Source: an uncultured Alphaproteobacteria bacterium (lineage in GTDB: Bacteria; Pseudomonadota; Alphaproteobacteria; Micavibrionales; Micavibrionaceae). Taken from it: a stretch of 64,000 bases of DNA. A model generated the notes under the pieces. It saw only the letters and a list, made by a program, of their open reading frames with translations. It was not told the origin of the DNA and searched no databases. Each line of letters begins with the position of its first letter. Within the stretch, counting starts at the first letter, position 1. The DNA is taken from positions 186,001-250,000 of the forward strand of contig CAADGI010000014.1 of assembly GCA_900696495.1 (NCBI GenBank), given 5' to 3'. Position numbers and translations under genes: made by a program. This document shows, piece by piece, positions 12,065 through 37,116 of this stretch.

Positions 12065-13117
<1,053 letters not shown>

Positions 13118-20050: not shown

Positions 20051-20821
20051 TCAGTTAGAGGTTTCATTCGCGAACTGCTCGCGCGAAATCCGCTCTTCCA
20101 GCGAATAATCGGGGTCGAACAGCAGCGTCTTGGAAATGCTGCGCGCCTCGCGCACGACGACCTCGCGTACATCGCGAACCTCTTTCGAATCCGCCGTCGC
20201 GGAAACCATGCGCTCCACCGGCTTTAAAATCTCGAAACGGATTTCATGCTTGTTATGGATGAGCGCGCCCGTCCAGCGGCGCGGCCGGAACGGGCTGATC
20301 GGCGTCAGTGGCAGAACATTGGCGTCGAGCGGCAAAATCGGGCCGCCTGCCGAGGAGTTATAGGCCGTGCTGCCAACCGGCGTTGAAACCATGACGCCAT
20401 CACAAACAAGCTCCGGCACACGTACCTTGTCGTCGATATGGATGCGGATTTTTGCCGAATTGTGGCTTTCCCGAAGCAAAGAAACTTCATTGAAAGCGAC
20501 TTCCGTATGCGGCTTTCCGTCCTTGTCGATGGCATCCATTTGTAAGGGATGAATGACAAAACGCGTCGCGGATTTGATGCGTTCTTCAAGACCGTCAACG
20601 ATGTGTTTATTCAAAAGAAAACCAAGCGTTCCCAGATTCATGCCAAAGATCGGCGCCTTATGATCCACGTAAGTGTGCAAGGCGCGGAGCATGGTGCCGT
20701 CGCCGCCGATAACGACGATGACTTCCGCATCCGCGGGATCGGCATTGCCGTATTTTCCTTTAAGCTCCTCAAGAGCTTTTTGCGCGCGCGGTTTTTTCGA
20801 AGAGTGAAAAGCGATTTTCAT
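20051..20821 (-). CDS. nadK: NAD kinase
   Basis: 256 residues. It phosphorylates NAD to NADP. The GGDG motif lies in VIGGDGTMLRALH and NLGTLGFL follows; the second conserved block is CDGVMVSTPVGSTAYN. This is the compact form usual in alphaproteobacteria. The start overlaps the pyrE stop by four bases, so the two are co-transcribed. Confidence 0.95.
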   Translation of the reverse strand: MKIAFHSSKKPRAQKALEELKGKYGNADPADAEVIVVIGGDGTMLRALHTYVDHKAPIFGMNLGTLGFLLNKHIVDGLEERIKSATRFVIHPLQMDAIDKDGKPHTEVAFNEVSLLRESHNSAKIRIHIDDKVRVPELVCDGVMVSTPVGSTAYNSSAGGPILPLDANVLPLTPISPFRPRRWTGALIHNKHEIRFEILKPVERMVSATADSKEVRDVREVVVREARSISKTLLFDPDYSLEERISREQFANETSN

Positions 20822-21498
20822 GATGAGGAAACGGTTGCGGAGTTGTTTTTATCCCAGCCTTCGGGATCGTTCAGGAAGGATTCGACCGATGCCAGAGTCT
20901 CGCTATCAAAATAGCCCTCTTCGCGGGCCGCGTCCAGAACATCGCGCCAGGTGCATAAGGCATGCAGTTTTACGCCCATCTCCTGCATATTTTGCGCGCT
21001 GCTGGCATGGCCGTGGCTGAAAATAACCAGCAGATGCTCGATAACCGCATGGGCGGCGCGCAGGGCATCGATGAAAATTTTCACGCTCGTGCCGAAATTC
21101 TGGACGTCTTCGATAAGGACGATGTTCTTGCCTTCATTCTCCATATGTCCCTCGATCTGGGCCATCCGGCCGAAGCCCTTCGGTTTTTTCCGGATATACA
21201 ACATCGGCTTCTGCATTTTCTGCGAAAGAAACGCCGCGTAGGGAATGCCCGCCGTTTCGCCGCCGGCGATGTAATCGATATTTTTAGCGCCGATTTCCTG
21301 CTCAAGAATTTCCGCGGCGAAGCTCATAAGCGTCTCGCGCTCTTTAGGAAATGAAATCAGGCGGCGGCAATCGGCGTAGCAGGGGCCTTTGCGCCCGGAT
21401 GTATAGGTGAACGGTTCGCGGGCGTTCAGAAGAACGGATTTCGTTTCGAGAAGAATTTTTGCCGTTTCGCGGGCGATTGTCTTTTTGTCTGCCATCAC
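20818..21498 (-). CDS. pyrE: orotate phosphoribosyltransferase
   Basis: 226 residues. It makes OMP from orotate and PRPP in pyrimidine synthesis. Motifs: FTYTSGRKGPCYADCR (substrate loop), YIAGGETAGIPYAAFL, YIRKKPKGFGR (catalytic Lys loop) and VLIEDVQNFGTS, the PRPP-binding loop, with QNF where many members have VTT. It overlaps nadK and is preceded by the divergently spaced S24 regulator region on the same strand. Confidence 0.93.
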   Translation of the reverse strand: MMADKKTIARETAKILLETKSVLLNAREPFTYTSGRKGPCYADCRRLISFPKERETLMSFAAEILEQEIGAKNIDYIAGGETAGIPYAAFLSQKMQKPMLYIRKKPKGFGRMAQIEGHMENEGKNIVLIEDVQNFGTSVKIFIDALRAAHAVIEHLLVIFSHGHASSAQNMQEMGVKLHALCTWRDVLDAAREEGYFDSETLASVESFLNDPEGWDKNNSATVSSS

Positions 21499-21577: not shown

Positions 21578-22222
21578 TTACTGGCTAACCCACAGAATCC
21601 GGGCCATCCAGCCGACTTCATCCAGCGTCAGCGAGCGGTCCTCGAAAGCGGGGTTCAGGGATTTAAGGCTGATTTTACCCGCGCTCTGGCGGATGAGTTC
21701 CTTGGCCATGACCTCGCCGTTCTTGGTTTTGACGATGATGCGGTCGCCCTTGCGGATTCTCTCCTGCGGAGAGACGACGATAATATCGCCATTCCGGTAA
21801 AGAGGCTGCATGGAATCGCCGTTGACCTGCAGCGCGAAAATGCTTTTGCTGTTCTGGTATTCCGCGTTCGGAAATGCGACCTCGTCCCAGCCATCGCCCG
21901 AAGGATAACCGTCCTCATCGAAATAGCCCGCCTTGCCCGCCTGCGCGAAGCCGACCATGGGAATCGTGCGCAGGCCCGAATTTTCGTTGTCGTTCTCGCC
22001 GATCAGCCCGATGAAATCGCTCATCGTCGCGCCGGTGACGGAAAGAATCTTTGAAAGGCTCTCCGTGGAAGGCCAGCGCGGTTTCCCGTCCGGGCTCAGC
22101 CGCTTGCTTTTGTTGAATGATGTGGGGTCTAGGCCCGCTTTTTTGGCAAGGCCGGAGGCGGAGTAGCCGCAGCTCGCGGCGAGGCGGTCGATTCCCCGCC
22201 AGATATCTTTATGCGAAAACAT
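21578..22222 (-). CDS. S24-family repressor (HTH plus LexA-like protease domain)
   Basis: 214 residues. The N-terminal helix-turn-helix (about 10-70; SASGLAKKAGLDPTSFNKSK) is followed by an S24 peptidase domain. The cleavage Ala-Gly lies in GFAQAGKAGY (residues 91-100), the nucleophile Ser137 in GDSMQPLY and the general base Lys174 in VMAKEL, so RecA-stimulated self-cleavage is possible. Such regulators control prophages and also occur as chromosomal genes in alphaproteobacteria. It diverges from the phage module at 22346 and is the likely master regulator of that module; this link is inferred from position and shared palindromes. Confidence 0.88.
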   Translation of the reverse strand: MFSHKDIWRGIDRLAASCGYSASGLAKKAGLDPTSFNKSKRLSPDGKPRWPSTESLSKILSVTGATMSDFIGLIGENDNENSGLRTIPMVGFAQAGKAGYFDEDGYPSGDGWDEVAFPNAEYQNSKSIFALQVNGDSMQPLYRNGDIIVVSPQERIRKGDRIIVKTKNGEVMAKELIRQSAGKISLKSLNPAFEDRSLTLDEVGWMARILWVSQ

Positions 22223-22257
22223 AGGATTACAGTCCCATTATCCTTCCTGAAAATAAA

Positions 22258-22310
22258 TAAGAATAAATTCCTATTTTTTCCTTGACGTCCCAAAAAATTT
22301 GTATCATAAA
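22258..22310 (+). promoter_or_regulatory. promoter and candidate operator of the phage module
   Basis: TTGACG at 22282-22287, a 17-base spacer, then CATAAA at 22305-22310, 36 bases before the first phage gene. Upstream lies the imperfect palindrome TAAGAA-TAAA-TTCCTA (22258-22273). The stretch TTTTCCTTGAC recurs at the capsid promoter (26346-26355), where a perfect version of the palindrome sits in the spacer. Confidence 0.55.
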
Positions 22311-22345
22311 CGAGAACATAAAGTGAACAAAAAGATTAAAAGGCC

Positions 22346-22771
22346 ATGACCTCCTATTCTGAATATATACCTAAACAACACACGGCAGCGGGAATTGTTC
22401 CCTTTGAAAGCGCTGAGGAGGCATGGTTCTGGTTTATTAATGCCCAGCAGGCCCGCAATGACGGCGCACGTTATGCGGCCGGGCAGGGAACCGTTCTTCG
22501 CCCCTGCGAACCTGTGGATATCCTCAGGATCCTCGACCGGCTTTACCGCCAGCGCCGCCTGCTGCGCGATCATTTGATGGTTTTACGCTATTACGGCCGC
22601 CGCCGCATGCCGCCCGATTCCCGCCGCGTCCGTGAAATGCGCGCCTATAAAATCTGGAGCGAAGCCCTGGCGCGGCTTGAAAGCGCGCTGGTTGCCAAGG
22701 GCATCGTTTTGCCGCCGCAGAAAATTCCCCTGAACGACAGCTTCGATTTATTCATGGAGGCTGCCGAATGA
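22346..22771 (+). CDS. phage-module hypothetical protein
   Basis: 141 residues, rich in Arg and Ala, predicted mostly helical. The segment FESAEEAWFWFINAQQARNDGA and a basic block LRYYGRRRMPPDSRRVREM suggest DNA contact, but I recognise no family. It is the first gene of the phage module, directly after the promoter, and overlaps the next gene by four bases. By position it could be a small regulator or an early packaging factor. Confidence 0.7.
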   Translation: MTSYSEYIPKQHTAAGIVPFESAEEAWFWFINAQQARNDGARYAAGQGTVLRPCEPVDILRILDRLYRQRRLLRDHLMVLRYYGRRRMPPDSRRVREMRAYKIWSEALARLESALVAKGIVLPPQKIPLNDSFDLFMEAAE

Positions 22772-23181
22772 GCGCGCTCTCCAATACAGAAAAAGCGCCG
22801 GATGCATGGGTCGTCTTCAGCGGCCAGTGCGATGACATTCCATGGCTGCGCATCTTGCGTCCCGGTTTCCGGCATTGCTACGCGTTGTTGAATGATGGCA
22901 AGCACTGGGTCTGTTTCGATCCGTTGTCGAATTACACCGATATCAATGTTCACGAACTGCCCGCCGCGTTCGATTTGCCGTTATGGCTGAAAGATCACGG
23001 CCACACCGTCGTAAAGGCAAAAGTCAAACGCGGCGTAAAGGAAGCGCCATGGATGCCACATACATGCGTCGAGGCGGTCAAGAGAGTCATCGGGCTGCAT
23101 GCGCGCTTCGTCATCACGCCGTGGCAGCTTTACCGGCATTTAACCCTTCAACACGAAAACAGCCAGAGAAAGGAAACATAA
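22768..23181 (+). CDS. phage-module hypothetical protein, possibly papain-like fold
   Basis: 137 residues. Conserved-looking polar residues are His and Cys in PGFRHCYALL, Asp in CFDPLS, and Cys in PHTCVEAVKRVIGLHA, followed by TPWQLYRHL. A His-then-Cys order with TCVEAVK at the start of a helix resembles permuted NlpC/P60-type papain folds, which would make it a peptidase or amidase. This is a weak pattern match, not an identification. It overlaps its upstream neighbour by four bases and precedes the portal gene region. Confidence 0.65.
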   Translation: MSALSNTEKAPDAWVVFSGQCDDIPWLRILRPGFRHCYALLNDGKHWVCFDPLSNYTDINVHELPAAFDLPLWLKDHGHTVVKAKVKRGVKEAPWMPHTCVEAVKRVIGLHARFVITPWQLYRHLTLQHENSQRKET

Positions 23182-23182
23182 T

Positions 23183-23407
23183 ATGGGCGGAGTCATAGGC
23201 AAGGCCGTTACTGAAACGCGTGCTGCCGAACAGGCTTATATCAAGGCATCTACGCCACCATCGCCTGAACAGCAGGCGAGCGATGCAAGGCGGCGCGATT
23301 TGCTGAATCGCGATCGCGGAATTTTTGGAACCATCCAGACGGGTTTTCGCGGCCTGCTTGGCATGGCAACCCAGAACAAGATTCGTAAAACGCTGTTGGG
23401 AGAATAA
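23183..23407 (+). CDS. small phage-module hypothetical protein
   Basis: 74 residues starting at an ATG with AGGAAAC upstream. Charged centre (SDARRRDLLNRDRG) and a Gly-rich hydrophobic part (GTIQTGFRGLLGMA). It fits exactly in the space between its neighbours: one base after the previous stop, one base before the portal ATG. No family was recognised. Confidence 0.65.
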   Translation: MGGVIGKAVTETRAAEQAYIKASTPPSPEQQASDARRRDLLNRDRGIFGTIQTGFRGLLGMATQNKIRKTLLGE

Positions 23408-23408
23408 T

Positions 23409-24863
23409 ATGGAGCAGACACTGGAAAATATTTTCACCCGTTTTGAATCCGCCCGTAAAATGCGCGGCAACTGGGAGAGTCTGTGGCAGGAATGTTACGA
23501 CTACGCTTTGCCGCAGCGGGCCGGATTCCTTTATGAGCAAATCCCCGGCGCCCGCCGCACCGACCGGATTTTCGACGCCACCGCCATGGACGCCGCCGAC
23601 CAGCTCGCGGCGAGCCTGCTTGGTAATCTTACGCCCGCGTGGTCGCAATGGTTCGGCCTTAAGCCCGGCCCGGACCTGACGCCTGAAGAAGCCGAAAAGC
23701 TTGCGCCCGTCCTCGAAAAAGCGGGACGCACGATGCAGGATCATTTCGACCGTTCCAATTTTTCGGTCGAAATTCATCAATGCTATCTCGACCTCGTCGT
23801 CGGCGGCACCGCCAGCCTTTCATTCGAGGAATCGGACCCGGGAAGTTTCTCGGCTTTTCGCTTCGCCGCCGTGCCGCTCAGCAGCATTATATTAGAGGAG
23901 GGCGAAAGCGGTTTTCTCGACGGCGCCTTCCGTGCGATGGAACTGAACGCCGCGCAAATCCGCGCGCGCTACCCCCAGGCTGAAATCCCGCCCCACATCC
24001 TGCGCAAGGGCGAAAAAGACCCGCAGCTTCAATTCAAAATCCTCGAAGCCGTGATTCCAGATGGGCTGGTCTACGCCTATAAGGCTTTCCTCGCCGAAAA
24101 CGCATCGCCGGTTTTGCTCGCCGAGGGAAAATTTGTTGAATCACCTTTCATTTCATTCCGCTGGCTGAAATCGCCGGGGGAGATTTATGGCCGCTCGCCG
24201 GTCATGAAGGCGCTCCCTGACATCAAGACCGCGAACAAGGTGGTTGAACTCATCCTGAAGAACGCTTCCATCGCCGTGACCGGGATCTGGCAAGCGGACG
24301 ACGACGGCGTTCTCAACCCGGCCAATATCGAACTTGTCCCCGGCAGCATCATCCCCAAAGCCGTTGGCTCGCAGGGGTTGCAGCCGCTCGATATGCCAGG
24401 CCGCTTCGATGTTTCGCAGCTCATGCTCGAAAATTTGCAGGCCCGCATCCGTCACGCTTTGCTGGCCGACCGCCTCGCGCCTGTCGCCGGTCCGCGCATG
24501 ACGGCAACCGAAGTCATGGAGCGCTCCTCCGAAATGACATTGCTGCTCGGCGCGACCTATGGACGGCTGCAAAGCGAGCTGCTCACCCCGCTCATCCGCC
24601 GCGCCTATGCGATCCTGCGCCGCCGTGGCGAAGTGCCCGACATCGCGCTCGATGGCCGTTTAATCACTATCGACTATCGTTCGCCTCTCGCCCGCGCGCA
24701 GGGCCAGCGCAATGTGCAAAGTACGCTGTCATGGATCGCCTCTGTCATGTCCATGGGCCCGGAAGCTGTTCAGGCCGTCGATATGGCGCAGGCCGCGCGT
24801 TTCCTCGGCGACGCCCTCGCGGTGCCGCGCAACTTGATAAGACAAGGAGAAAGCAATGTTTAA
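23409..24863 (+). CDS. phage portal (head-tail connector) protein, podovirus type
   Basis: 484 residues from the ATG at 23409. The frame is open further left to 23325, but that would overlap the previous gene. Features of T7-like head-tail connectors: RTDRIFDATAMDAADQLAASL, then LTPAWSQWFGL, the wing LDLVVGGTASLSFEES, and PGEIYGRSPVMKALPDIKTANK, followed by GPRMTATEVMER. The protein forms the twelve-part ring through which DNA enters the head. It overlaps the next gene by eight bases. Confidence 0.92.
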   Translation: MEQTLENIFTRFESARKMRGNWESLWQECYDYALPQRAGFLYEQIPGARRTDRIFDATAMDAADQLAASLLGNLTPAWSQWFGLKPGPDLTPEEAEKLAPVLEKAGRTMQDHFDRSNFSVEIHQCYLDLVVGGTASLSFEESDPGSFSAFRFAAVPLSSIILEEGESGFLDGAFRAMELNAAQIRARYPQAEIPPHILRKGEKDPQLQFKILEAVIPDGLVYAYKAFLAENASPVLLAEGKFVESPFISFRWLKSPGEIYGRSPVMKALPDIKTANKVVELILKNASIAVTGIWQADDDGVLNPANIELVPGSIIPKAVGSQGLQPLDMPGRFDVSQLMLENLQARIRHALLADRLAPVAGPRMTATEVMERSSEMTLLLGATYGRLQSELLTPLIRRAYAILRRRGEVPDIALDGRLITIDYRSPLARAQGQRNVQSTLSWIASVMSMGPEAVQAVDMAQAARFLGDALAVPRNLIRQGESNV

Positions 24864-25134
24864 AGCCTTCGCCCGCCCGCCATCGGCGCTGGCAAGCAAG
24901 GGATTGATTTATTCCCTGCCGGAGCCGCCGAAACCAGAAATGCGCGAGATTGAAAAATCCTACGCCCGCCTGTTTTCCACCGACGATGGTCGCAGGGTTC
25001 TCGCGCACCTGCAGACCATAACGTTTCACCGCGCGCTGGGCGCCGCAACGCCCGACGAGCAGATCCGCTATGCCGAAGGGCAGCGTTCGCTGGTCGCCAC
25101 CATTTTGCGGCTCATCGACCGTGGCCGTAATTAA
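24856..25134 (+). CDS. Bbp19-like small phage protein
   Basis: 92 residues. YARLFSTDDGRRVLAHLQTITFHR and YAEGQRSLVATILRLI match the short family typified by Bordetella phage Bbp19, which lies between portal and scaffold genes in many podoviruses. Function is unknown. The start overlaps the end of the portal gene by eight bases. Confidence 0.78.
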   Translation: MFKAFARPPSALASKGLIYSLPEPPKPEMREIEKSYARLFSTDDGRRVLAHLQTITFHRALGAATPDEQIRYAEGQRSLVATILRLIDRGRN

Positions 25135-25159
25135 TTCCAACCAAAAAGGAGACTGAAGT

Positions 25160-25798
25160 ATGACTGAGAATTTACTGACGAATGAAATCCCCGAAAAATT
25201 CAAGGACCCCGAAACCGGCGGCCTGAAAGCCGACGCGCTCCTGCGTTCCTACAAGGAACTCGAGAAAAAACTCTCGCAGGGCGGCGGCGCGCCGAAATCC
25301 CCGGAGGATTATTGCATCGACTGTTCGCACGGCATGTTCGAACCCGACGTCGAGGTAAATGCCCGCATGCACGCGAAAGGTTTTTCGCACGAACAGGCGC
25401 AGGAGCTGTATAATCTTGCTGCCGAGAAAATGATGCCCCTGATTGCGGAAATCGCTGCCGAGTTCCAGGCCGACCGCGAGGTCGAGCGCCTCATCAATCA
25501 TTTCGGCGGTTTGGAAAAATGGAAAGAAGTCTCTCGCCAGTTGCTGGCCTTCGGCCGCCAGAATGTCTCGCCGGATGTGTTGAAAAACCTGTCAGGCAGC
25601 TACGAAGGCGTATTGGCCTTGCATCGCATGATGAAATCGGAAGAGCCGGGCCTCAAACGCGGTGTTTCCGTCACTGCCATCGAGGAAAAAGACCTCCATT
25701 CCATGATGCGCGACCCGCGCTATTGGCGCGACAAGGATCCGTCCTTCATCGCGAAGGTGACCGACGGATTTCAGAAAATTTACGGGAATAAAAACTAG
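25160..25798 (+). CDS. phage capsid scaffolding protein
   Basis: 212 residues, acidic and helical with the segment KADALLRSYKELEKKL near the N-terminus, the usual opening of podovirus scaffold proteins, and a charged C-terminus (MMRDPRYWRDKDPSFIAKVTDGFQKIYG). It would guide procapsid assembly and be removed on packaging. AAAAAGGAG precedes its ATG. A strong terminator follows directly, so scaffold and capsid are on separate transcripts here, unlike in most phages. Confidence 0.82.
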   Translation: MTENLLTNEIPEKFKDPETGGLKADALLRSYKELEKKLSQGGGAPKSPEDYCIDCSHGMFEPDVEVNARMHAKGFSHEQAQELYNLAAEKMMPLIAEIAAEFQADREVERLINHFGGLEKWKEVSRQLLAFGRQNVSPDVLKNLSGSYEGVLALHRMMKSEEPGLKRGVSVTAIEEKDLHSMMRDPRYWRDKDPSFIAKVTDGFQKIYGNKN

Positions 25799-25807
25799 AA
25801 ACGAGAA

Positions 25808-25831
25808 AGCCCTCCACCGGAGGGCTTTTTT
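25808..25831 (+). terminator. intrinsic terminator after the scaffold gene
   Basis: Arms AGCCCTCC and GGAGGGCT around a three-base loop, followed by five or more T. It splits the phage structural genes into two transcription units and ends on the stop side of the PilZ gene. Confidence 0.88.
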
Positions 25832-26228
25832 ATGCCAGGTGCGAATCCGCAAATTCGGCCGCGAGGAAATCGTCGACGACCGTCTGGAACGATTTCTTGA
25901 TCTGCTGGGTGAGAGGAGCGAACTTGAACGCAACCTTGTCATAGCTTTTGCGGATGACCCTTGCTTTGTGCGGCACGTCGATCACTTCGTTGCGCAGGCG
26001 GAATTTCAAAGTGACGGCGATTTCATCATTGATGCCGAACGGCCGGCTGTCGCCGTAAATCAGCACGCCGCCGGGCGACCAGTTCTCGACCGGGTAGGTT
26101 TTGCCATCGATGACGCTGACGCAATGATCCGCGCTGCGGCGCTCGAAAAGCCGGCGCTTCGCTTCGTTAAGGGAAGAATCGGATTCGCCCTTGAGCTTGG
26201 AAAGAAGTGATTCAAACATAATGCGCAT
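25830..26228 (-). CDS. PilZ-domain protein (c-di-GMP receptor) inside the phage module
   Basis: 132 residues. The c-di-GMP binding signature is complete: RxxxR (R26-LFE-R30 in RRLFERR) and, 19 residues on, NxSxxG (N49-W-S51-P-G-G54 in NWSPGG). A beta-rich PilZ barrel follows to about residue 115. No other domain is present, so it is probably a stand-alone adaptor. It is transcribed against the phage genes, between scaffold and capsid, with palindromes in its upstream region. An ATG at 26219 is an alternative start. It may be cargo (a moron) rather than a structural gene. Confidence 0.85.
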   Translation of the reverse strand: MRIMFESLLSKLKGESDSSLNEAKRRLFERRSADHCVSVIDGKTYPVENWSPGGVLIYGDSRPFGINDEIAVTLKFRLRNEVIDVPHKARVIRKSYDKVAFKFAPLTQQIKKSFQTVVDDFLAAEFADSHLA

Positions 26229-26586
26229 GGTCCCCCTGACCAGATTTCAAGTTATGTTAACATATCCGTGCTTCTATAACCTAAGAAAAATATAGGTTTT
26301 GCATAGAATATGCGTAGCCCTAAAAATAATAAAAAATCATCCGATTTTCCTTGACATCATAGGAATTATTTCCTATTACTTAATTATCAAAGCCCGAATT
26401 GCAACCTTTTGCAGCCATGCATATGGCGAAAAGGCATCGCGGCTTTCCCTCAGCGAACGACGACAACCCATCTTCCCGCGGCCCGCATTCGCTTCCCGGA
26501 CGTATCGGCCTTCGGACATTTCGTCCCTGACAACCGTCCCGCACCGGCATCTCAACCCATCCCTTAACCCCAACAAGGAGTTTGAT
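26229..26586. promoter_or_regulatory. divergent control region between PilZ and capsid genes
   Basis: A 358-base gap without a gene. It holds TATGTTAACATA (26253-26264, perfect palindrome), AACCTA-N9-TAGGTT (26278-26298), GCATA-GAA-TATGC (26301-26313) and the capsid promoter TTGACA-17-TATTAC (26351-26379). The perfect palindrome TAGGAA-TTAT-TTCCTA (26360-26375) lies inside that promoter's spacer. The remaining 200 bases would be a long capsid mRNA leader. The frame is open upstream of the capsid ATG, but its codon use and sequence do not look coding. Confidence 0.6.
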
Positions 26587-27423
26587 ATGTCCACCACATT
26601 CGACCAGGCATTCATCAAGCAGTTCGAACGCGAAGTGCATGAAGCCTATCAGCGCCAGGGTTCCAAGCTGCGGAACGCCGTGCGCATTTCCAATAACGTT
26701 AATGGTTCTTCCGCCGTCTTCCAGAAAATCGGCAAGGGCACAGCCTCGACAAAATCGACGCACGGCATGGTGCCGGTGATGAATCTTGACCATACTAATG
26801 TCGAGGTTACGCTCGCCGATTATTACGCAGGCGACTGGGTCGACCGTCTCGAGGAACTCAAGAGCAACATCAACGAGCGCCAGGTGATCGCCAGCGCCGG
26901 TGCCTATGCTCTGGGCCGCAAGACCGATGAACTCATCATCACAGCGCTTGCAACCGCGTCGACGCACACCGTCGCCGAAGCCAACACCGGCCTGACCAAG
27001 GCTAAAATCCTCAGCGCCTTTGAAACGCTCGGCGAAAACGACGTGCCTGATGATGGCCAACGTTTTGCTGTCGTCGGCTGGAAGCAATGGACCGAACTGC
27101 TCGCCATTCCCGAATTCGTCAGCTCCGATTATGTCGGCGACACTGGCCTGCCGTTCGCTACGGCCATGCAGGCGAAGCAATGGCTCGGCACGGTCTGGAT
27201 CCCGCATTCGGGATTGCCGATCGACGGCAGCGACATCCGCTCCTGCTACTGGTTCCACAAAAATGCCGTCGGCCACGCATCGGCCTCCGACATCCAGACG
27301 GACATCACCTGGCATGGCGACCGCGCCGCGCACTTCGTCAACAACATGATGAGCCAGGGCGCAGGGCTGATCGACCAGAACGGCATCGTCACGATCTTCT
27401 GTGATGAAACGCCTGACGCTTAA
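26587..27423 (+). CDS. phage major capsid protein
   Basis: 278 residues from the ATG at 26587, with AAGGAG six bases upstream; an upstream in-frame start at 26299 lacks a ribosome site and is not credible. The N-terminus FDQAFIKQFEREVHEAYQRQ, then VTLADYYAGDWVDRLEELKS and the central FAVVGWKQWTELLAIPEF match capsid proteins of Bbp17-like podoviruses. Highest-expressed structural gene by design: own promoter, strong ribosome site. Confidence 0.85.
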   Translation: MSTTFDQAFIKQFEREVHEAYQRQGSKLRNAVRISNNVNGSSAVFQKIGKGTASTKSTHGMVPVMNLDHTNVEVTLADYYAGDWVDRLEELKSNINERQVIASAGAYALGRKTDELIITALATASTHTVAEANTGLTKAKILSAFETLGENDVPDDGQRFAVVGWKQWTELLAIPEFVSSDYVGDTGLPFATAMQAKQWLGTVWIPHSGLPIDGSDIRSCYWFHKNAVGHASASDIQTDITWHGDRAAHFVNNMMSQGAGLIDQNGIVTIFCDETPDA

Positions 27424-27431
27424 TCCTTTTT

Positions 27432-27523
27432 CGTCATTGCGAGGAGCGAATGCGACGAAGCAATCCAGAAAACGTACCACCAAACTGGATTGCTTCGCTC
27501 CCGTTGGTCGCTCGCAATGACGA
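27432..27523. repeat. palindromic repeat, family B copy 1
   Basis: About 92 bases forming a long hairpin. CGTCATTGCGAG at the left pairs with CTCGCAATGACG at the right, and GAAGCAATCCAG pairs with CTGGATTGCTTC inside. A second copy at 54426-54583 lies beside a chromosomal housekeeping gene. Its presence between two phage structural genes suggests long residence of the module in this genome. Confidence 0.85.
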
Positions 27524-27560
27524 TTGGAAAGAAATTTGAAATTAAGAAGGAGATTTTAAA

Positions 27561-27800
27561 ATGGCTTACTCAGCATCCAATCTCAGCGTGCTCGCTTACG
27601 CGAATAATTTCACGCTCTGGCACTACACCACCACCGACGCCAACGTTACGGACTCGGGATACTTCAACAGCGCAGTCAGTATGCTGCGCAAGGGCGATTT
27701 CATTATCGTCAACGTCGACACCGACGGCACCCCGGCCAACAAATTTTATGTTGTGACCGGCAACACGGGCAGCGCCGTATCCCTGACGGTTTACTCGTAA
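27561..27800 (+). CDS. small phage head-associated hypothetical protein
   Basis: 79 residues, beta-rich, beginning MAYSASNLSVLAYANNFTLW. The composition (Thr, Val, Ser) and position directly after the capsid gene fit a head decoration or stabilising protein, but no family is certain. AGAAGGAGA precedes the ATG. Confidence 0.72.
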   Translation: MAYSASNLSVLAYANNFTLWHYTTTDANVTDSGYFNSAVSMLRKGDFIIVNVDTDGTPANKFYVVTGNTGSAVSLTVYS

Positions 27801-27970
27801 CCGTCCGTTCCCTGAGCGGCGCGTAAGGCTCGAAGCGTATCCCCCCAATCAACGCTCGCCGCCCTTCTGCCGCGTGTCGACAACCTGTGGCGGGCGATGG
27901 TTTGCAAAAACCCTCGTCCGCCACTTTTTTAACGATTTACGCTTATATCTTTTAATTCTATAATAATAAA

Positions 27971-28174
27971 ATGCAGAGATTGGATCTGAAGATCATGGTT
28001 CCTAAAGCAAAACGGACTGCATTGTTTTTTAGCATCTTGTTTTTGATTTTTGTGCTGCCTTATTTGGCTGTTCTATCGACTGCTTCAGATTTTAATCCCG
28101 ATTTTCTATCCATTGACAGCTGCCTGGACTCGGGCGGTGTATGGGACGAACAAAATCGTCAATGCAGACATTGA
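27971..28174 (+). CDS. small membrane protein with Cys motif, phage module
   Basis: 67 residues. One hydrophobic segment (FFSILFLIFVLPYLAVLST) follows a basic start. The C-terminal part IDSCLDSGGVWDEQNRQC resembles the short Cys motif CxDxGGxW....C found in many small exported proteins. It is AT-richer than its neighbours and is separated from them by empty stretches. Possibly cargo; function unknown. Confidence 0.55.
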   Translation: MQRLDLKIMVPKAKRTALFFSILFLIFVLPYLAVLSTASDFNPDFLSIDSCLDSGGVWDEQNRQCRH

Positions 28175-28213
28175 AATCTAAACTTTAAATCATAAAATTT
28201 CAGGAGACTTACA

Positions 28214-28783
28214 ATGGCACTCAACGATGTTGCCCTGTGCAGCCGCGCGCTCATTCGCATCGGCGCCGCACCAATCACTTCTTTCGACGACGGCACGGCG
28301 GAATCCGAAATCGCCGGCGCTTTGTTCGGTCCCGTGCGTGATGCGCTTCTCTCGGCCTATGCCTGGAGTTTCGCGACCGCGCAGGCGGCGCTGGAGGAGC
28401 TCGAAACCCCGCCGCTCGCCGATTACAGTAACGCCTTCGACCTCCCCGAGGATTTCCTGCGCGCTCTCTCGGCGGGCAGCGGCACCAAGGGCAGGGGCCT
28501 CAATTACCGCATCGCGCGCGGCGGCCTGCACACCAATTCCACCGACGTGATGCTCACTTATATTTTCCGCCCGGAGGAGGAGGAATTCCCGCCTTACTTC
28601 GACCAGGCGCTGATCACGCGTCTCGCCGCCGAATTCACAATCCCCGTCACCGAAAATACCGGCCGCGCCGAAACGCTCTACAAGATCGCGGACATCGAAT
28701 ACCAGCGCGCCCGCCAGATCGACGCGCAGCAGGACACGCCGAATAAACTCGAGAATTTCAGTCTTATTGACGCGAGGAAATAA
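28214..28783 (+). CDS. phage tail tubular protein A-like
   Basis: 189 residues. ALNDVALCSRALIRIGAAPI at the N-terminus, then ALLSAYAWSFATAQA and, later, YFDQALITRLAAEFTIPVT are the usual pattern of T7 gp11-like tail tubular A proteins, which form the adaptor ring between portal and nozzle. The stop overlaps the next start by one base (TAATG). Confidence 0.85.
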   Translation: MALNDVALCSRALIRIGAAPITSFDDGTAESEIAGALFGPVRDALLSAYAWSFATAQAALEELETPPLADYSNAFDLPEDFLRALSAGSGTKGRGLNYRIARGGLHTNSTDVMLTYIFRPEEEEFPPYFDQALITRLAAEFTIPVTENTGRAETLYKIADIEYQRARQIDAQQDTPNKLENFSLIDARK

Positions 28784-30684
28784 TGACCCGCATGCATGAA
28801 CAAAAAACGACATTCACCGCCGGTGAATTGTCGCCCGAACTGCTGGGCCGCGGCGATCTCGCGGCATATCAGAACGGTGCGCTGGAACTGCGCAATGTCT
28901 TCATCAACCCGACCGGCGGCGTGAAACGCCGGGCAGGGCTGGCCTTCATCGATACAGCCGAAGGCGATGGTAAACTCATCGCGTTCGAATTCAACACCGA
29001 GCAGACCTATTTGCTCGTCCTCACCGACGAGGAAATCAATATCTATGCCGACGGCGTGCTGGATGAGACGATTCCCGCGCCGTGGACGCTGACGCAAATC
29101 CGTCAGCTCGCCTGGACGCAAAGCGCCGACACGATTTTATTCACCCATCCCGACGTCGCGCCGAAAAAACTGACGCGCGGCAGCGGCGGCACATGGACGC
29201 TCAGCGACTGGGCGTTCTTCACGGACGGCAACAACGTGATGCACCAGCCTTATTTCAAATTCGCGGACACAGCCATGACCCTGACGCCGGGCGGCACCAC
29301 CGGCTCGGTCACGATCACGGCATCCGCTTCCGTGTTCGATGCGGGTCACAACAACACGCGCCTGCGCGTCGGCGGCAAGGAAGTGCTGATCACGGCTGTC
29401 GGCTCGGCGACCAGCGTGACCGTGACGGTCATCGAAACCCTCGCCGGCACCGGCGCGACCCTCGACTGGGAGGAGCAGGCATTCAGCCCCGTGCGCGGCT
29501 ATCCGGTAACATCCGCCTTCCATCAGGACAGATTGGTTATCGGCGGCAGCCGCGATCTGCCTAACCGTTTATGGTTCTCGCGCTCGGGCGATCTGATGAA
29601 CTTCAATCCCGGCACCGGGCTCGACGACGAGGCGATCGAATTCGCGATCCTCTCCGACCAGGTCAACGCTATCCGCGGTATTTTCTCGGGCCGCCATTTG
29701 CAGGTCTTCACCTCCGGCGCCGAGTGGATGGTCAGCGGCGACCCGCTCACGCCTGCCGAAGTGCAGATCAGAAGGCAAACCCGCATTGGTTCGGTCATCG
29801 AGCGTTACATCCCTCCGGTCAATGTCGACGGCGCGACCATGTTCATCGCGCGCAGCGGGCGCGGCATCCAGGAATTCCTTTATACCGATCTCGAGCAAGC
29901 CTACCGCTCGACCGATATCGCGCTGCTGGCGCGGCATATGATCCTCGATCCCGTCGATCAGGATTACGACCAGAAAAACCGCCTGCTTTACGTGCTGCGC
30001 GGGGACGGGCAATTCGCGACCTACACCGCGCTGCGCTCTGAAAATGTCGGCGGCTGGACGCTCCACACCACCGAAGGCCTCATGAAATCCATCGCCGTGG
30101 TAGGCGACGACGTTTACGTTCTCGTCAACCGCGACGGCGTCTACACGATCGAGCAGTTCGATGAAACGCTCAACTTGGATTCAGCGCTGACCGGAACGTC
30201 GGAAACTCCCGCCGATACGTGGTCCGGCCTCGGCCATCTCGAAGGGCTCGGCGTCGTGGCGCTCGCCGACGGCTTCGTCCAGCCCGCGCAGACAGTCACC
30301 GGCGGCGAAATCACGCTGGATGAAGAAGCAAGCGAAGTCGTCATCGGCCTGCCTTACGCCCACATCATCGAGCCGCTGCCGCCGAGCGAGATCGGCATCG
30401 CGGGCAGCCGGCTGAAACTGCGGCTCGTGCAGGCGATCTACCGCATCCAGGAAACCGCGGCGCTGAAACTCGATGTCGGGCGTGGGCTGAAAGACATCTC
30501 GCTGCTTCGCATCGGCGAGGAGGAAAACCCGGCCGAGCCGCCGCCCCTCGTCAGCGGCGACATCAAGGTCCGCGCCCTCGGCTGGCAGTCGGACCGCACG
30601 CGCGGCCTCTGGCGCATCGAGCAAAGCGCGCCGCTGCCATTCACGCTTTTATCGGTCAACGCCGAAATCAAGGTCAACGACTAA
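28783..30684 (+). CDS. phage tail tubular protein B-like (tail nozzle)
   Basis: 633 residues. TTFTAGELSPELLGRGDLAAYQNG and the following NVFINPTGGVKRRAGLAFI are the hallmark of tail nozzle proteins of podoviruses. The rest is beta-rich (propeller-like) with VTSAFHQDRLVIGGS and LWFSRSGDLMNFN. It is somewhat shorter than T7 gp12. It is translationally coupled to the preceding gene. Confidence 0.88.
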   Translation: MTRMHEQKTTFTAGELSPELLGRGDLAAYQNGALELRNVFINPTGGVKRRAGLAFIDTAEGDGKLIAFEFNTEQTYLLVLTDEEINIYADGVLDETIPAPWTLTQIRQLAWTQSADTILFTHPDVAPKKLTRGSGGTWTLSDWAFFTDGNNVMHQPYFKFADTAMTLTPGGTTGSVTITASASVFDAGHNNTRLRVGGKEVLITAVGSATSVTVTVIETLAGTGATLDWEEQAFSPVRGYPVTSAFHQDRLVIGGSRDLPNRLWFSRSGDLMNFNPGTGLDDEAIEFAILSDQVNAIRGIFSGRHLQVFTSGAEWMVSGDPLTPAEVQIRRQTRIGSVIERYIPPVNVDGATMFIARSGRGIQEFLYTDLEQAYRSTDIALLARHMILDPVDQDYDQKNRLLYVLRGDGQFATYTALRSENVGGWTLHTTEGLMKSIAVVGDDVYVLVNRDGVYTIEQFDETLNLDSALTGTSETPADTWSGLGHLEGLGVVALADGFVQPAQTVTGGEITLDEEASEVVIGLPYAHIIEPLPPSEIGIAGSRLKLRLVQAIYRIQETAALKLDVGRGLKDISLLRIGEEENPAEPPPLVSGDIKVRALGWQSDRTRGLWRIEQSAPLPFTLLSVNAEIKVND

Positions 30685-30702
30685 CAGCAAAGGAAAATCC
30701 AG

Positions 30703-31194
30703 ATGGGATCAGCAACAAAAGCAGTCGGCATCCTGCCCGTTCTGTCAACATTCATCCCCGGCGCGCAGGCTTTCGCTCCGGCTCTCGGTTTGATAGCCAG
30801 GTACGGCATGATGAGGCATGAAACGCGCGCGCAGAAAAAAAGGGAAAACCTGCGCTACAGCAACGAGCAGCGGCAACTGGCGATGAACGAACGCATCCGC
30901 GCCGCGGATGTCCGGTTCGCGGAAAATGAACGAATCCAGACTCTCCGCCGCGCCGTGGCGCGCCAGCGTGCAAGGTTCGGCGCGCAAGGCATCGGCAACA
31001 ATGGCGGCTCGTCCGAAGCGGTTTTGCTCGGCCTCTTTGAGGAGAGCGAACAGGAAAAGCTCAAGCGCGAACAGATGGACAATCTCAGAAATCAATCGGC
31101 GCGGCTGGACGTGGAGGGAAGACACTCCTTGAATCTTCTGGAACTGACGTCGCAGGCCGAACGACGGAACCTGGAATTCTTATATTCGAATTGA
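30703..31194 (+). CDS. phage internal core-like protein
   Basis: 163 residues. A short hydrophobic N-terminal part (ILPVLSTFIPGAQAFAPALGLIA) is followed by a long coiled coil rich in Arg, Glu and Gln. GNNGGSSEAVLLGLFEESEQEKLKREQ is reminiscent of T7 gp14-type internal virion proteins, where this arrangement lets the protein enter the host envelope. The place after the nozzle gene fits. The match is by pattern only. Confidence 0.7.
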   Translation: MGSATKAVGILPVLSTFIPGAQAFAPALGLIARYGMMRHETRAQKKRENLRYSNEQRQLAMNERIRAADVRFAENERIQTLRRAVARQRARFGAQGIGNNGGSSEAVLLGLFEESEQEKLKREQMDNLRNQSARLDVEGRHSLNLLELTSQAERRNLEFLYSN

Positions 31195-31212
31195 TCGATC
31201 AGGAGAGTATCA

Positions 31213-31842
31213 ATGGCAAAGCAGGAAACATTTGGGCCGCCGCGCCCTTATGGACCATACAGACCCGTAATAAATTTAGAAAAAGAGAGAGAAAAATATC
31301 TCAAGGAAGACAAGCCGGCGATTTTTCAAATCTCCGACCGTAGGCTCCCGGCCAATGCCGTCAAGCGGACGGCTATGCAGTCTTTTAATGAAGAGAGGAA
31401 AGAATTTCTTAGGAATTTTGCTTCACCATCTGCCGGCCGGGCTGCGGTTCAGAAGCATGATAAAACCATTCTCAAATATTCTGAAAAACACAATATTGAC
31501 CCTGATCTTGTAAGAGCAGTTATGTATGCTGAAAACACGCGCGGATGGTATGGTAAAGCAGCTGAAGCGATTAACTTGTCCGATAGTATTTTACCTATGA
31601 ACATAAAAAAGCAAAAGTGGTCCGGCCTTGTTAACAAGAAGCAAGATGACATGCATAATGCTGATGTCAATATTGAGGCAGGAACGGTTTTATTAAAAAG
31701 AATCCGTGATAGGATAGAGCGCCCTACGCCAGAAAAAATTGGTTCCATATGGCATTATACCGGCAAGGAAAATATAGATGAGTTTGGAAATTTCATTGGT
31801 GAAGTCTATAAGAAAAAACCGTGGCTTGAATTGGGCGATTAA
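31213..31842 (+). CDS. lysozyme-like (SLT-type) domain protein, cassette 1
   Basis: 209 residues. The first 80 are Pro- and Lys-rich; residues 80-205 form an SLT lysozyme-like domain with the likely catalytic Glu107 in DPDLVRAVMYAEN, then SILPMNI and LLKRI. The same domain, with the same ending (YKKKPW versus YKEKPW), forms the C-terminus of the protein at 35412. No signal peptide. It could be a reduced virion-associated transglycosylase, as its place after the core gene suggests, or a toxin. The gene is AT-rich against its neighbours, and its 3' end is overlapped by a membrane protein gene. Confidence 0.78.
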   Translation: MAKQETFGPPRPYGPYRPVINLEKEREKYLKEDKPAIFQISDRRLPANAVKRTAMQSFNEERKEFLRNFASPSAGRAAVQKHDKTILKYSEKHNIDPDLVRAVMYAENTRGWYGKAAEAINLSDSILPMNIKKQKWSGLVNKKQDDMHNADVNIEAGTVLLKRIRDRIERPTPEKIGSIWHYTGKENIDEFGNFIGEVYKKKPWLELGD

Positions 31843-32134
31843 GATTTGCACTTGGTATGTTATCTTCATGTCCGCTTTTTGTTCGGTATTAATCGCTATA
31901 ATTTGGCTCTTACACTTAGATGAATACCATTGGCCAGAATATTGTATGGTCGTGAATGGTAATCAGGCGCACGACTTTATGGTTGATGATGTCGCTTGCA
32001 AGATTAAATGGTCATTTTTCATGCAACCTTTAATACTTTCTGCGCTGTGTTATCTTATTTTAGTAGGACCGGTTGCGCTTGTGGGATTTCTTTTGAAAAT
32101 ATTTAATAATAAAAATGCCACGATACACTCTTAA
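31778..32134 (+). CDS. two-helix membrane protein overlapping cassette 1 (immunity-like)
   Basis: 118 residues if the ATG at 31778 is used; it then overlaps the lysozyme-like gene by 65 bases. Two membrane helices (WYVIFMSAFCSVLIAIIWLL and the stretch before GPVALVGFLLKIF) flank a loop with two Cys. Its arrangement equals that of the 36334 gene beside the paralogous cassette. Candidate immunity protein or holin-like partner; the start is uncertain (a TTG at 31826 or the ATG at 31868 are alternatives). It overlaps the next gene by 20 bases. Confidence 0.6.
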   Translation: MSLEISLVKSIRKNRGLNWAIKICTWYVIFMSAFCSVLIAIIWLLHLDEYHWPEYCMVVNGNQAHDFMVDDVACKIKWSFFMQPLILSALCYLILVGPVALVGFLLKIFNNKNATIHS

Positions 32135-32825
32135 AATTGCAATTTTTTTATCTTGTATTGTCACGGCCTTGGTTGTTGCATACTTTGCCTACACGCACGG
32201 CCTGTGGCGATTTAATTATCCAACGCATGAGCAATATTCTGTGCACGGGCTTGATGTCTCGCATCACCAGGGCGACATCCGCTGGAATGAAATCCCGCAG
32301 GACCGTTTTCGCTTCGTTTATATCAAGGCAACCGAGGGCGGCGACCACAAGGACAAAAAATTCCTGCAAAACTGGAGTGAAGCCCGCGCCGCCGGTTTTA
32401 AGACGGGGGCTTATCATTTCTTCACTTTATGCAGGAAAGGCGCTGAGCAGGCCGCGAATTTTATAAATTCCGTACCGAAGGAATCCGGCGCCCTGGCGCC
32501 GGTCATCGATCTGGAATTTGTGGGCAACTGCAGTGAGCGACCATCGCGCGGCGCCTTTTTAAAGGAGTTGCAAGATTACGTTGATGCGGTGGAGAAACAC
32601 TATGACGCGCAACCTGTTTTATACACGACATATCAGTTTTACAGGCGATATTTGAAGAGCGCAGAATTTGAATCATATCCGCTCTGGGCGCGCGATGTTT
32701 TCAGAGAGCCGGACGCGTCTGTTTTTCCGGAGTGGAAAATATGGCAGTACGCCGACAATGCGCGCATCCCCGGCATATCCGGTCCCGTGGATTTGAACGC
32801 TTTGAATCCGCATTCTGAATTTTAA
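32115..32825 (+). CDS. GH25 lysozyme (muramidase) with N-terminal membrane anchor
   Basis: 236 residues. An N-terminal hydrophobic segment (IFLSCIVTALVVAYFAYTHGL, about 10-30) could act as an anchor or a signal-arrest sequence. The GH25 fold is clear: GLDVSHHQGDIRW with Asp47, FVYIKATEGG, GAYHFF, VIDLEF with Asp132 and Glu134, and WQYADNARIPG. It cuts the N-acetylmuramyl-glucosamine bond. By position it is the phage endolysin. A terminator follows. Confidence 0.92.
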   Translation: MPRYTLKIAIFLSCIVTALVVAYFAYTHGLWRFNYPTHEQYSVHGLDVSHHQGDIRWNEIPQDRFRFVYIKATEGGDHKDKKFLQNWSEARAAGFKTGAYHFFTLCRKGAEQAANFINSVPKESGALAPVIDLEFVGNCSERPSRGAFLKELQDYVDAVEKHYDAQPVLYTTYQFYRRYLKSAEFESYPLWARDVFREPDASVFPEWKIWQYADNARIPGISGPVDLNALNPHSEF

Positions 32826-32849
32826 ACTATTTTCTATTTCTTCACTTTA

Positions 32850-32876
32850 AGCCCGCTGATTACGCGGGCTTTTTTT
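32850..32876 (+). terminator. intrinsic terminator after the GH25 gene
   Basis: Arms AGCCCGC (32850-32856) and GCGGGCT (32864-32870), followed by six T or more. It ends the capsid-to-endolysin transcript. Confidence 0.85.
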
Positions 32877-32890
32877 ATTGCAGGATAATT

Positions 32891-33193
32891 ATGCAGAAAG
32901 AAACGATGGAAGAGGCCCTGCGCGGTTTTGCCGCGGAGTTGCCGGGCGCCATGCGCGAAGCATGGCAATCATATAAAGACAGCCAGCACCCGGATCTCAC
33001 CGAAAAGGAAATCAAAAAAATGAAGCTGCGGCAGGATGCCGGCAAGGCGGCGATGGCGCACATGATGTTGATATTGAAAGCAACAAAAACAGCCGGCGCC
33101 ATGGATGGCGGCGGCGATGAACTCGCCGGTCAAATAGAAAAAGCGGAAGCGGAAATCAATGAAATCCGCCAGCAGCAAAAGAGGGATGAATGA
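32891..33193 (+). CDS. terminase small subunit-like protein
   Basis: 100 residues, helical and charged (ALRGFAAELPGAMREAWQSYKD, then a C-terminal coiled segment IEKAEAEINEIRQQQKRDE). No firm family match. The call rests on size, the four-base overlap with the terminase large subunit gene, and the usual order. It would recognise DNA for packaging. Confidence 0.62.
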   Translation: MQKETMEEALRGFAAELPGAMREAWQSYKDSQHPDLTEKEIKKMKLRQDAGKAAMAHMMLILKATKTAGAMDGGGDELAGQIEKAEAEINEIRQQQKRDE

Positions 33194-34548
33194 GCCGATA
33201 TGCAATCCGCGAGGCGGATTTTCATTTGTTTATGGTTCTGTGGAATCAACAGATGAAATTCGGCACCCCGGTTTTGCATTCAAAAATGGCGGACTGGCTG
33301 GAATGGAACTGGAAGAAGAAAAACACGCATCTGCTTATGATGGCGTTCCGTTCCAGCGGCAAGAGTACGATCATGGGGCTTTTTGCGGCGTGGCTTTTGT
33401 ATCGCGACAGGGATTTGCGTATCCTTGTTTTGGCGGCGGACTCCATCCTTGCGCGCAAGATGGTGCGGCAGGTGAAAAAAATCATCGAGCTGCATCCGCT
33501 CACGAAGGAGATGAAGCCGGACGATCCCGATCAATGGGCGTCCAGCCGCTTTACCGTGAAACGCATGATTCAATTGCGCGATCCGTCCATGCTTGCGCGC
33601 GGCATCACGTCGAATATCACCGGCAGCCGCGCCGATATCGTGATCTGCGACGACGTCGAGGTTCCCAACACCTGCGACACGGCGCAGAAACGCGAGGATC
33701 ATGCGTTCCTGCACGGCTATGAACGGCTTGTCCTGCCCGTGCTGGATGAAAAGGGAGAATCCGCGTGGCCGGAAAAATACACGACCTATCTGCTGGACCG
33801 CATCAAAACCCAGACCGGCCCGAACAAATTCGCGTCGCAAATGATGCTGAGGCCCGTGAATATCATGGAAGGGCGGCTCGATCCGGAATTGCTGCAAGTC
33901 TATAGCGAAGAACTCGATTACACTAAGGAAATTCAATCGCTTTTTTTGAAAGGGGAGAAACTTGCCGGCGCCTCGGGCTGGTGGGACCCGGCTTATGGTT
34001 CGCCGCGCGGCGATAATTCGGTGTTTGCGATCGTCTTCACGGATGAAAAAGGAAATTTATATCTGCACCGCATCGTTTATCTCGAAACCGGCAAGCAGGA
34101 CGATCTCGACGAGGCAACGATGCAATGCAGGCAAGTCGCGCATATAGCAAAGGAAAACTACCTGCCCGCGCTTTCTGTCGAAAATAACGGCATCGGAAAA
34201 TTTCTTCCGCCAATCCTGCGCAATGAAATGGCGCGCTCGAAAACGCCTTGCGCCGTGAAGGAAATAAGCAATACGCGGCCCAAGGATATCCGCATTCTGG
34301 AAGCCTTTGATGCCGTGCTCGCGGCGCGTCGCCTGTTCGTTCACGAATCCGTTTTGAAAACGCCCTTCATGACGGAGATACGAGAATGGCGCCCCGGCAT
34401 GGCGCGCGGTCAGGATGACGGCCTCGATGCCGCGGCGGGAGCGATTTCGCAGCAACCTGTGCGGCTGCCGAGAATTTACGGCAAGGGCGCGCAGAACTGG
34501 ACGAAGGCAAAGAAAGCGCATCGCGCTGAAACGGATTTTGAGGTTTAA
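33190..34548 (+). CDS. phage terminase large subunit
   Basis: 452 residues. ATPase domain: Walker A FRSSGKST (residues 53-60), Walker B DIVICDD. The nuclease (RNase H-like) domain keeps its acidic residues in GWWDPAYGSPRGDN, in the VENNGIGKF segment and in GQDDGLDAAAGAI. It is a T7 gp19-like packaging motor. All key residues are intact, so packaging could still work. It directly follows the small subunit gene. Confidence 0.92.
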   Translation: MSRYAIREADFHLFMVLWNQQMKFGTPVLHSKMADWLEWNWKKKNTHLLMMAFRSSGKSTIMGLFAAWLLYRDRDLRILVLAADSILARKMVRQVKKIIELHPLTKEMKPDDPDQWASSRFTVKRMIQLRDPSMLARGITSNITGSRADIVICDDVEVPNTCDTAQKREDHAFLHGYERLVLPVLDEKGESAWPEKYTTYLLDRIKTQTGPNKFASQMMLRPVNIMEGRLDPELLQVYSEELDYTKEIQSLFLKGEKLAGASGWWDPAYGSPRGDNSVFAIVFTDEKGNLYLHRIVYLETGKQDDLDEATMQCRQVAHIAKENYLPALSVENNGIGKFLPPILRNEMARSKTPCAVKEISNTRPKDIRILEAFDAVLAARRLFVHESVLKTPFMTEIREWRPGMARGQDDGLDAAAGAISQQPVRLPRIYGKGAQNWTKAKKAHRAETDFEV

Positions 34549-34552
34549 AATC

Positions 34553-34876: not shown

Positions 34877-34887
34877 GAAAATCAAAA

Positions 34888-35406: not shown

Positions 35407-35411
35407 ACAGA

Positions 35412-37012: not shown

Positions 37013-37116
37013 GGATAGAAATCCATCCTATAGTTGCACCGCCTGCAATTACCTCAAAAGTTGTTTTCTTCAATCCCTGATAAGCCGCCCGTCTGCGGCA
37101 AAGGAGTTCTATTATC

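Follow-up and report, generated by a model that had tools for sequence, protein, structure and literature searches.

Organization of the locus

We analyzed a stretch of 64,000 nucleotides (hereafter the window) from an uncultured alphaproteobacterium of the Micavibrionaceae, in which the gene for an S24-family repressor lies next to, and divergent from, a phage-derived gene cluster of about 15 kb (22346 to 37647; Table 1). One predicted promoter precedes the early genes of this cluster and a second one precedes its capsid gene. The preliminary description of this DNA had noticed the palindrome TAGGAA-N4-TTCCTA at both promoters and had proposed that it is bound by the S24 protein, which would place both transcripts under one LexA-like switch. 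The comparison of related genomes described here supports the first proposal, in that the adjacent S24 repressor very probably has its operator in the palindrome. The second proposal has to be modified, since the early promoter carries a LexA-type box of its own.

Table 1. Coordinates of the regulatory sites and genes discussed in the text.
Feature	Position	Strand	Basis or remark
S24 repressor, 214 aa; helix-turn-helix (HTH) about 1-78, putative cleavage site A95-G96, dyad S137/K174	21578-22222	-	Pfam, PHROG, AlphaFold2 model
Operator O2, TAGGATTACAGTCCCA, weaker, 9/12, over S24 start codon	22222-22237		read in sequence
Predicted S24 promoter, TTTATT-17-GACTGT, perhaps leaderless	22229-22257	-	sequence; TTTAC-like sequence there in relatives
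Operator O1, TAAGAATAAATTCCTA, 11/12	22258-22273		scan; recurrence in relatives
Early phage promoter, TTGACG-17-CATAAA	22282-22310	+	sequence; same spacing in relatives
LexA/SOS-type box, GAACATAAAGTGAAC, at predicted early start point	22314-22328		motif scan; relatives
Early operon: orf141, orf137, orf74, portal (23409-24863), orf92	22346-25134	+	Head-tail_con PF12236 4.4e-146; synteny
T7-type capsid assembly (scaffold) protein	25160-25798	+	PF05396 6.4e-14
PilZ-domain gene, antisense	25830-26228	-	PF07238 5.9e-5
Capsid promoter, TTGACA-17-TATTAC	26351-26379	+	sequence; geometry alike in relatives
Capsid operator, 12/12	26360-26375		fills 17-bp spacer; final TA is first two bases of -10 (26374)
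Major capsid protein	26587-27423	+	Phage_capsid_2 PF19821 4.3e-81; phrog_3437 major head protein 3e-71
Tail protein 1	28214-28783	+	phrog_394 1e-43; also tail tubular family 1.8e-12
Tail protein 2	28783-30684	+	phrog_376 5.4e-146
Endolysin	32115-32825	+	phrog_6219 3.9e-31
Terminase large subunit, T7 type	33190-34548	+	NF033889 termin_lrg_T7 357.7 bits, cut-off 150
Cell wall hydrolase	34888-35406	+	PF07486 1.6e-20
GTA_holin_3TM protein, taken as last element gene	37117-37647	+	PF11351 1.2e-9; Na+/H+ antiporter gene next
nadK and pyrE, usual chromosomal neighbors	20051-21498	-	family matches, synteny

Positions of the palindrome in the window

A scan of the window at up to two mismatches located the palindrome three times, without a mismatch at the capsid promoter, with one mismatch beside the S24 gene (O1), both as previously described, and with two mismatches at 13104. 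Because three matches (0.94 expected) were reached in 9 of 100 shuffles, the window by itself is weak evidence, and the case for the palindrome therefore stands on comparison. A further site, O2, had been missed in the preliminary description.

The palindrome had been described as a site between the -35 and -10 elements. This is correct for the capsid promoter. At the early promoter, however, the placement is wrong, because O1 ends at 22273, eight bases ahead of the -35 element TTGACG (22282-22287), and sits between this promoter and the divergent S24 gene. Many relatives have a pair of palindromes spaced by 36 bp, frequently at positions -51 and -15 relative to the start codon. TTGAC followed 22-25 nucleotides (nt) past the start of the operator in 38 of the 40 intergenic regions read, three more having been dropped as too long.

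The two promoters also share, as had been claimed, TTTTCCTTGAC, whose exact occurrences in the window are solely those at the two promoters (22276-22286 and 26345-26355); TTGAC begins at the positions given earlier, 22282 and 26351. We rejected it as a special shared regulatory box: the genome holds six copies (control, one), and the run of T is not conserved among 23 capsid promoters, own included, in 16 of which C precedes TTGAC. Since the T-run is unconserved, the shared box is mainly the -35 element.

The operator follows the regulator across genomes

The association between palindrome and regulator was analyzed in two sets of loci. Upstream of S24 homologues, a palindrome matching at least 10 of 12 positions was found in 27 of 30 loci, these being the best-scoring of 106 genomes with a regulator match. 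Among 78 loci with enough upstream sequence (79 were found; L116 was dropped), the palindrome lay ahead of the regulator gene in 39 of the 43 phage-linked loci, where base shuffles gave 0.38, in 2 of the 5 loci linked to pyrE only (shuffles 0.05) and in 8 of the 30 others (shuffles 0.16). The 30-locus and 43-locus sets share genomes and are not independent, and the isolate OFTM66 contributes two loci.

A composite site, TTGAC-N4-TAGGAA-N4-TTCCTA with up to two mismatches, was then counted in 114 genomes of the order. It occurred 360 times, against 30 for the reversed-pattern control, in the 82 genomes with the HTH, and 14 times against 8 in the 32 genomes that, by our grouping, have no clear HTH match. 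Of 30 capsid loci, the best-scoring among 80 genomes in which the capsid matched, 24 have the composite site ahead of the capsid gene at up to four mismatches and 23 at up to two, own included (0.27 expected). The -10 element begins with TA in all 23 capsid promoters, with T as third base in 17 and as sixth base in 17. The sites at the regulator gene, those in the capsid spacer and the co-occurrence with the HTH thus all point to the S24 protein and its relatives as the proteins that would bind the palindrome.

It could be argued that the sites merely reflect promoter architecture, with a constrained spacer and -10 element, or chance in AT-rich intergenic DNA. The spacers are indeed AT-rich, and the own genome shows no enrichment at two mismatches. 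The reversed-pattern controls and base shuffles, however, are far lower than the observed sites, and in the families f3 and f5 (25 genomes, no clear HTH match) three composite sites stand against eight for the control. We consider this explanation scarcely credible.

Palindromes elsewhere in the genome

The genome-wide search suggested in the preliminary description, for which a palindrome common without a link to S24 would have spoken against the proposal, gave 13 good sites at up to one mismatch in 2.04 Mb (control, 5), and the composite site tracks the regulator, so that the proposal withstood this search. Six of the 13 sites have the capsid geometry, with TTGAC (TTGTC in one) four bases 5' of the palindrome: the capsid (L001), argH (L002), a small open reading frame (ORF) operon (L003), L004, argS (L007) and GDPD (L013), the names of host genes being read from translations. 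The composite pattern at up to two mismatches likewise occurs six times (control, none). In five others, mnmA (L005), L006, aspS (L008), L011 and nrdB (L012), the palindrome abuts the -35 element, which is TTGACA in L006 and weak in the other four; centered near -41.5, these palindromes look like sites in an activator position. The remaining two are O1 and L010, which has no visible promoter. In two sister species the palindrome was enriched similarly (13 against 5 in G061; 11 against 1 in G081), and for 11 of the 13 own sites a corresponding site exists in one or both of them; none was found in either for L004 and L011.

These sites raise the question of whether another regulator of the host, with a regulon specific to the genus (argS, argH, aspS, mnmA, nrdB), binds the palindrome, which would then have been recruited to the phage promoters. 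Eleven of the 13 own sites do lie outside the element, and the counterparts in the sister species are as such a regulon would have them. On the other hand, the family as a whole does not conserve the argS and nrdB sites, whereas it does conserve those at the regulator gene and the capsid, and the co-occurrence of the composite site with the HTH is contrary to this explanation, which we regard as very unlikely. The argS and nrdB sites were also rejected as parts of a deeply conserved regulon. Since the host-gene sites are genus-restricted, as judged for argS and nrdB in the family and for the other genes in sister species, a host regulon may be recent or incidental.

Apart from this, six genomes belonging to different genera share an operon that follows a spacer operator (L003, L044, L062, L063, L073, L194/L195). 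It holds a small ORF and/or a protein with the motif W-PW-KSTGPKT..GK, and sometimes a HAD hydrolase. The operon proteins scanned gave no convincing family match; the operon may supply something that the element lacks, for instance a small terminase.

The S24 repressor

The repressor matched Peptidase_S24 (Pfam, 7e-25) and, over residues 13-213, the transcriptional repressor family phrog_4 (1.1e-30). The Pfam scan found no HTH model in it, and the helices were taken from the AlphaFold2 model (pLDDT 85, pTM 0.55), which has five helices in its N-terminal part and resembles S24 in its C-terminal part. The nearest structures to the model are lambda repressor and LexA, with a whole-chain TM score of about 0.44 and single domains up to 0.71 by target; the best Foldseek match was lambda repressor 3bdn (E 2.1e-8, TM 0.44 by query).

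The lambda CI protein, in which an Ala-Gly pair is the site of self-cleavage and a Ser-Lys dyad catalyzes it, aligns across the same stretch. Among 22 phage-linked S24 proteins, own included, A95, S137 and K174 are present in all 22 and G96 in 21. Since both the pair and the dyad are conserved, self-cleavage of the S24 repressor is likely. The HTH, the S24 fold, the Ala-Gly site, the Ser-Lys dyad and the palindromic operator at the predicted S24 promoter make the regulator CI/LexA-like.

A LexA-type box on the early promoter

Just past the predicted -10 element of the early promoter lies a further site that had gone unnoticed in the preliminary description. The opposite strand of GAACATAAAGTGAAC reads GTTC-N7-GTTC perfectly, which is the alphaproteobacterial SOS motif according to PMC3323433. 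The box stands 31-32 nt past TTGAC in 32 of the 38 early promoters of relatives. In the genome as a whole the exact motif occurs 54 times on both strands, about twice the control (29), and single sites therefore need support. Twelve of the 54 places were read, chosen mostly for AT-rich spacers: one lies ahead of lexA, three ahead of genes read as ruvC, radA and rarA, and the others away from repair genes. The early promoter thus shares the motif with the lexA gene of its own genome, as in a LexA regulon. From the own lexA, a 150-residue piece scored 95.8 bits on the LexA model, whose cut-off of 110.95 applies to the whole protein.

The box was also sought in 22 IMG/VR regions, where it is present in all five with the PilZ gene. 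Of the 17 regions without this gene, 15 have an O1-like palindrome (at least 9/12) whose distance from the start codon is unchanged, and most lack the SOS box; the operator therefore is of greater age than this box or has been better conserved.

With the LexA-type box, the proposal of one LexA-like switch for both transcripts does not hold. Since this box lies on the early promoter, the control looks like a two-repressor circuit, in which a phage-type repressor would act together with the host LexA.

Fusion of the HTH to PyrE

Nor does a single S24 switch apply throughout the relatives. The 43 phage-linked loci comprise 21 with HTH-S24, 20 with the HTH fused in frame to PyrE, without an S24 domain (labelled within L128-L150), and two with a short HTH-only frame; overall, 21 of the 79 related loci show the fusion. 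S24-type proteins and those with the HTH alone or fused hardly differ in the putative recognition region (32-41), and their operators are alike. In the one fused protein scanned, L128, the PyrE part scored 325.9 bits on the curated orotate phosphoribosyltransferase model (cut-off 245).

The window itself has S24 and pyrE as two distinct, neighboring genes and hence no phosphoribosyltransferase-fused repressor. Because the two genes are neighbors, a deletion joining the HTH to pyrE would be a simple origin of the fusion. In genomes with HTH-PyrE, the capsid arm would answer to the nucleotide state, and the early arm would stay under LexA.

The particle gene cluster and its descent

Relatives keep the gene order of the cluster, and 35 of the 43 phage-linked loci have nadK or pyrE next to it. 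In five loci the regulator and pyrE occur with neither portal nor orf141. A capsid match was obtained in 65 of 76 sampled genomes of the family, in 80 of 114 in the order and in 92 of 385 in the class, 59 of the last at 54% identity or more with four family genomes included. The cluster is under purifying selection: the ratio of nonsynonymous to synonymous divergence (dN/dS) against two sister loci was 0.03-0.12, with dS of 0.58-2.07 (0.70-1.18 for nadK and pyrE). Distances correlated with those of nadK for portal (r=0.76, 31 loci), scaffold (0.68) and PilZ (0.62). The cluster holds head, tail, packaging and lysis genes, as a gene transfer agent (GTA) does. The protein scan, which did not extend to orf92 and further small ORFs, revealed no integrase, replicase or phage RNA polymerase and no other replication or integration gene.

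These facts suggest that the cluster is a domesticated T7-like particle cluster that may have been passed on largely by vertical descent, most likely a GTA-like element of the Micavibrionaceae. There is another possible interpretation, namely an ordinary temperate podophage, in which the repressor and operators are those of an active prophage that inserts frequently at nadK-pyrE. The CI-like repressor with a divergent early promoter resembles a phage switch, relatives are entered in IMG/VR as viral contigs, capsid distances follow the host weakly and some loci lie elsewhere. The lack of integrase, replicase and polymerase among the scanned proteins, the frequency of the capsid in the family and selection like that on host genes nevertheless argue against an active prophage. 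The best capsid matches in phage records were 62% identical (unannotated, from faecal samples) and, for the nearest annotated phage capsid in the collection, 50% (a Pelagibacter phage). We therefore judge the temperate phage unlikely.

Several observations were made on the cluster and its surroundings. The PilZ gene, which might relate to cyclic di-GMP, lies antisense between scaffold and capsid and is present in 32 of 33 phage-linked loci holding both; the capsid operator lies between PilZ and capsid. Seven IMG/VR contigs of about 18 kb (L257, L262, L267, L271, L273, L274, L276) carry S24, portal, capsid and terminase genes in the same order, with a capsid about 70% identical. In OFTM66, two contigs (L137 and L139) each hold nadK, pyrE, HTH and phage genes, by duplication or strain mixture. 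A short repeat holding GAAGCAATCCAG occurs in the window at 27457-27496, 50341 and 54447-54560 (five matches, 0.34 expected). The window gave no Rfam match and no tRNA.

Proposed control circuit

On the basis of these results, we consider it probable that the palindrome is the operator of the HTH-S24 protein, that this repressor and the host LexA control the domesticated GTA-like cluster, and that DNA damage releases both operons. In the uninduced cell, S24 dimers bound at the spacer operator would block the capsid promoter, and the repressor would limit its own synthesis through O1 and O2. The host LexA would hold the divergent early operon, from orf141 to portal and perhaps scaffold, shut from the box at the start point. 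The effect of O1 on the early promoter could be activation, help to repression, or nothing. Upon DNA damage, RecA would promote self-cleavage of both repressors, and both particle-gene operons would be expressed together, allowing particles to form.

A number of observations weigh against this circuit. The own genome shows no enrichment of the palindrome when two mismatches are allowed (53 against 53 for the control), and G066, a genome of another genus with the HTH present, shows none even when one is allowed (4 against 7). Composite sites occur where no clear regulator was found: six in G078, two each in G011 and G112, one in G104 and one in each of three f3 genomes. Since 6 of the 14 such sites fall in G078, that assembly may miss a regulator. 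A recognizable operator is absent from 6 of the 30 capsid loci. Of 30 loci each, the argS site is kept only in the own genome and one sister, plus one weak match, and the nrdB site likewise, plus one poor match. At the early promoter, O1 is centered near -51.5, which is no classical repressor site, and the SOS box occurs in just 2 of the 17 IMG/VR copies without the PilZ gene. As to vertical descent, in 8 of the 43 phage-linked loci the 10 kb available on the side concerned contain neither nadK nor pyrE, several genomes have a broken, fragmentary (or stop-bearing) capsid gene or none, and capsid distances track those of nadK weakly (r=0.24), some capsids being cut by contig ends.

Comparison with known systems

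The present system shares with lambda CI and LexA the HTH and S24 domains, the Ala-Gly pair, the Ser-Lys dyad, palindromic operators, divergent promoters and an autoregulatory layout. It differs from them in that the capsid promoter has one operator, set in its spacer, that the early promoter bears a LexA-type box, and that nearly half of the phage-linked loci (20/43) have the HTH fused to PyrE. The direct repeat is the same as in the alphaproteobacterial SOS regulon, but here it lies on a phage-derived operon.

RcGTA, the GTA of Rhodobacter capsulatus, requires LexA by an imprecisely known route, according to PMC9638019. As far as published abstracts describe RcGTA, the two have in common a phage-derived head-tail-packaging-lysis cluster kept in Alphaproteobacteria, a GTA-holin-family protein and a link to LexA, which is predicted here. 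Judged by family matches (PF12236, PF05396, NF033889 and PF19821, T7-type or other) and not by direct comparison of proteins, the present cluster appears to differ from RcGTA in its T7-type terminase and scaffold; it also has a CI-like repressor alongside and an SOS motif on its own promoter. BaGTA (Bartonella, type II), another alphaproteobacterial lineage of GTA type, is reported in PMC9662315 to have co-evolved with its hosts; its classification there uses an HK97-type capsid gene, and a phage-derived replication origin lies nearby. The difference from our cluster, in the HK97-type capsid and the nearby origin, is drawn from that description. The parts available of PMC2697382, PMC7947584, PMC6473078 and PMC8522061 describe no T7-like GTA of this kind, and the titles and abstract openings among the literature matches listed contain no description of this element or of a Micavibrio GTA.

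For the HTH-PyrE fusions, the Bacillus PurR protein offers a precedent for nucleotide sensing. It likewise joins a DNA-binding domain to a phosphoribosyltransferase-type domain, whose pocket binds phosphoribosyl pyrophosphate (PRPP) and guanosine tetraphosphate (ppGpp), according to PMC8789054. The HTH differs between the two, and the fused protein L128, unlike PurR, still scores as a full orotate phosphoribosyltransferase.

A wider reading can be put forward tentatively, as a possibility about which we are rather doubtful: the cluster may be a T7-like alphaproteobacterial GTA as old as the class and distinct from RcGTA and BaGTA, in which the same HTH and operator code is combined with swapped sensors, a RecA-cleavable S24 domain or, in sister genera, PyrE, with pyrimidine/PRPP or ppGpp gating alongside LexA.

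Significance

The analysis provides a concrete and testable control circuit for a phage-derived element, with two repressors of the damage-sensing type and defined predicted operators. Most of the genomes sampled from the Micavibrio family have retained the element, and its capsid is also seen in other Alphaproteobacteria. If the particles move DNA, the element would be another GTA lineage, one with a dedicated CI-like switch and its own SOS box. The HTH-PyrE fusion, if it acts as proposed, would link particle production to nucleotide metabolism.

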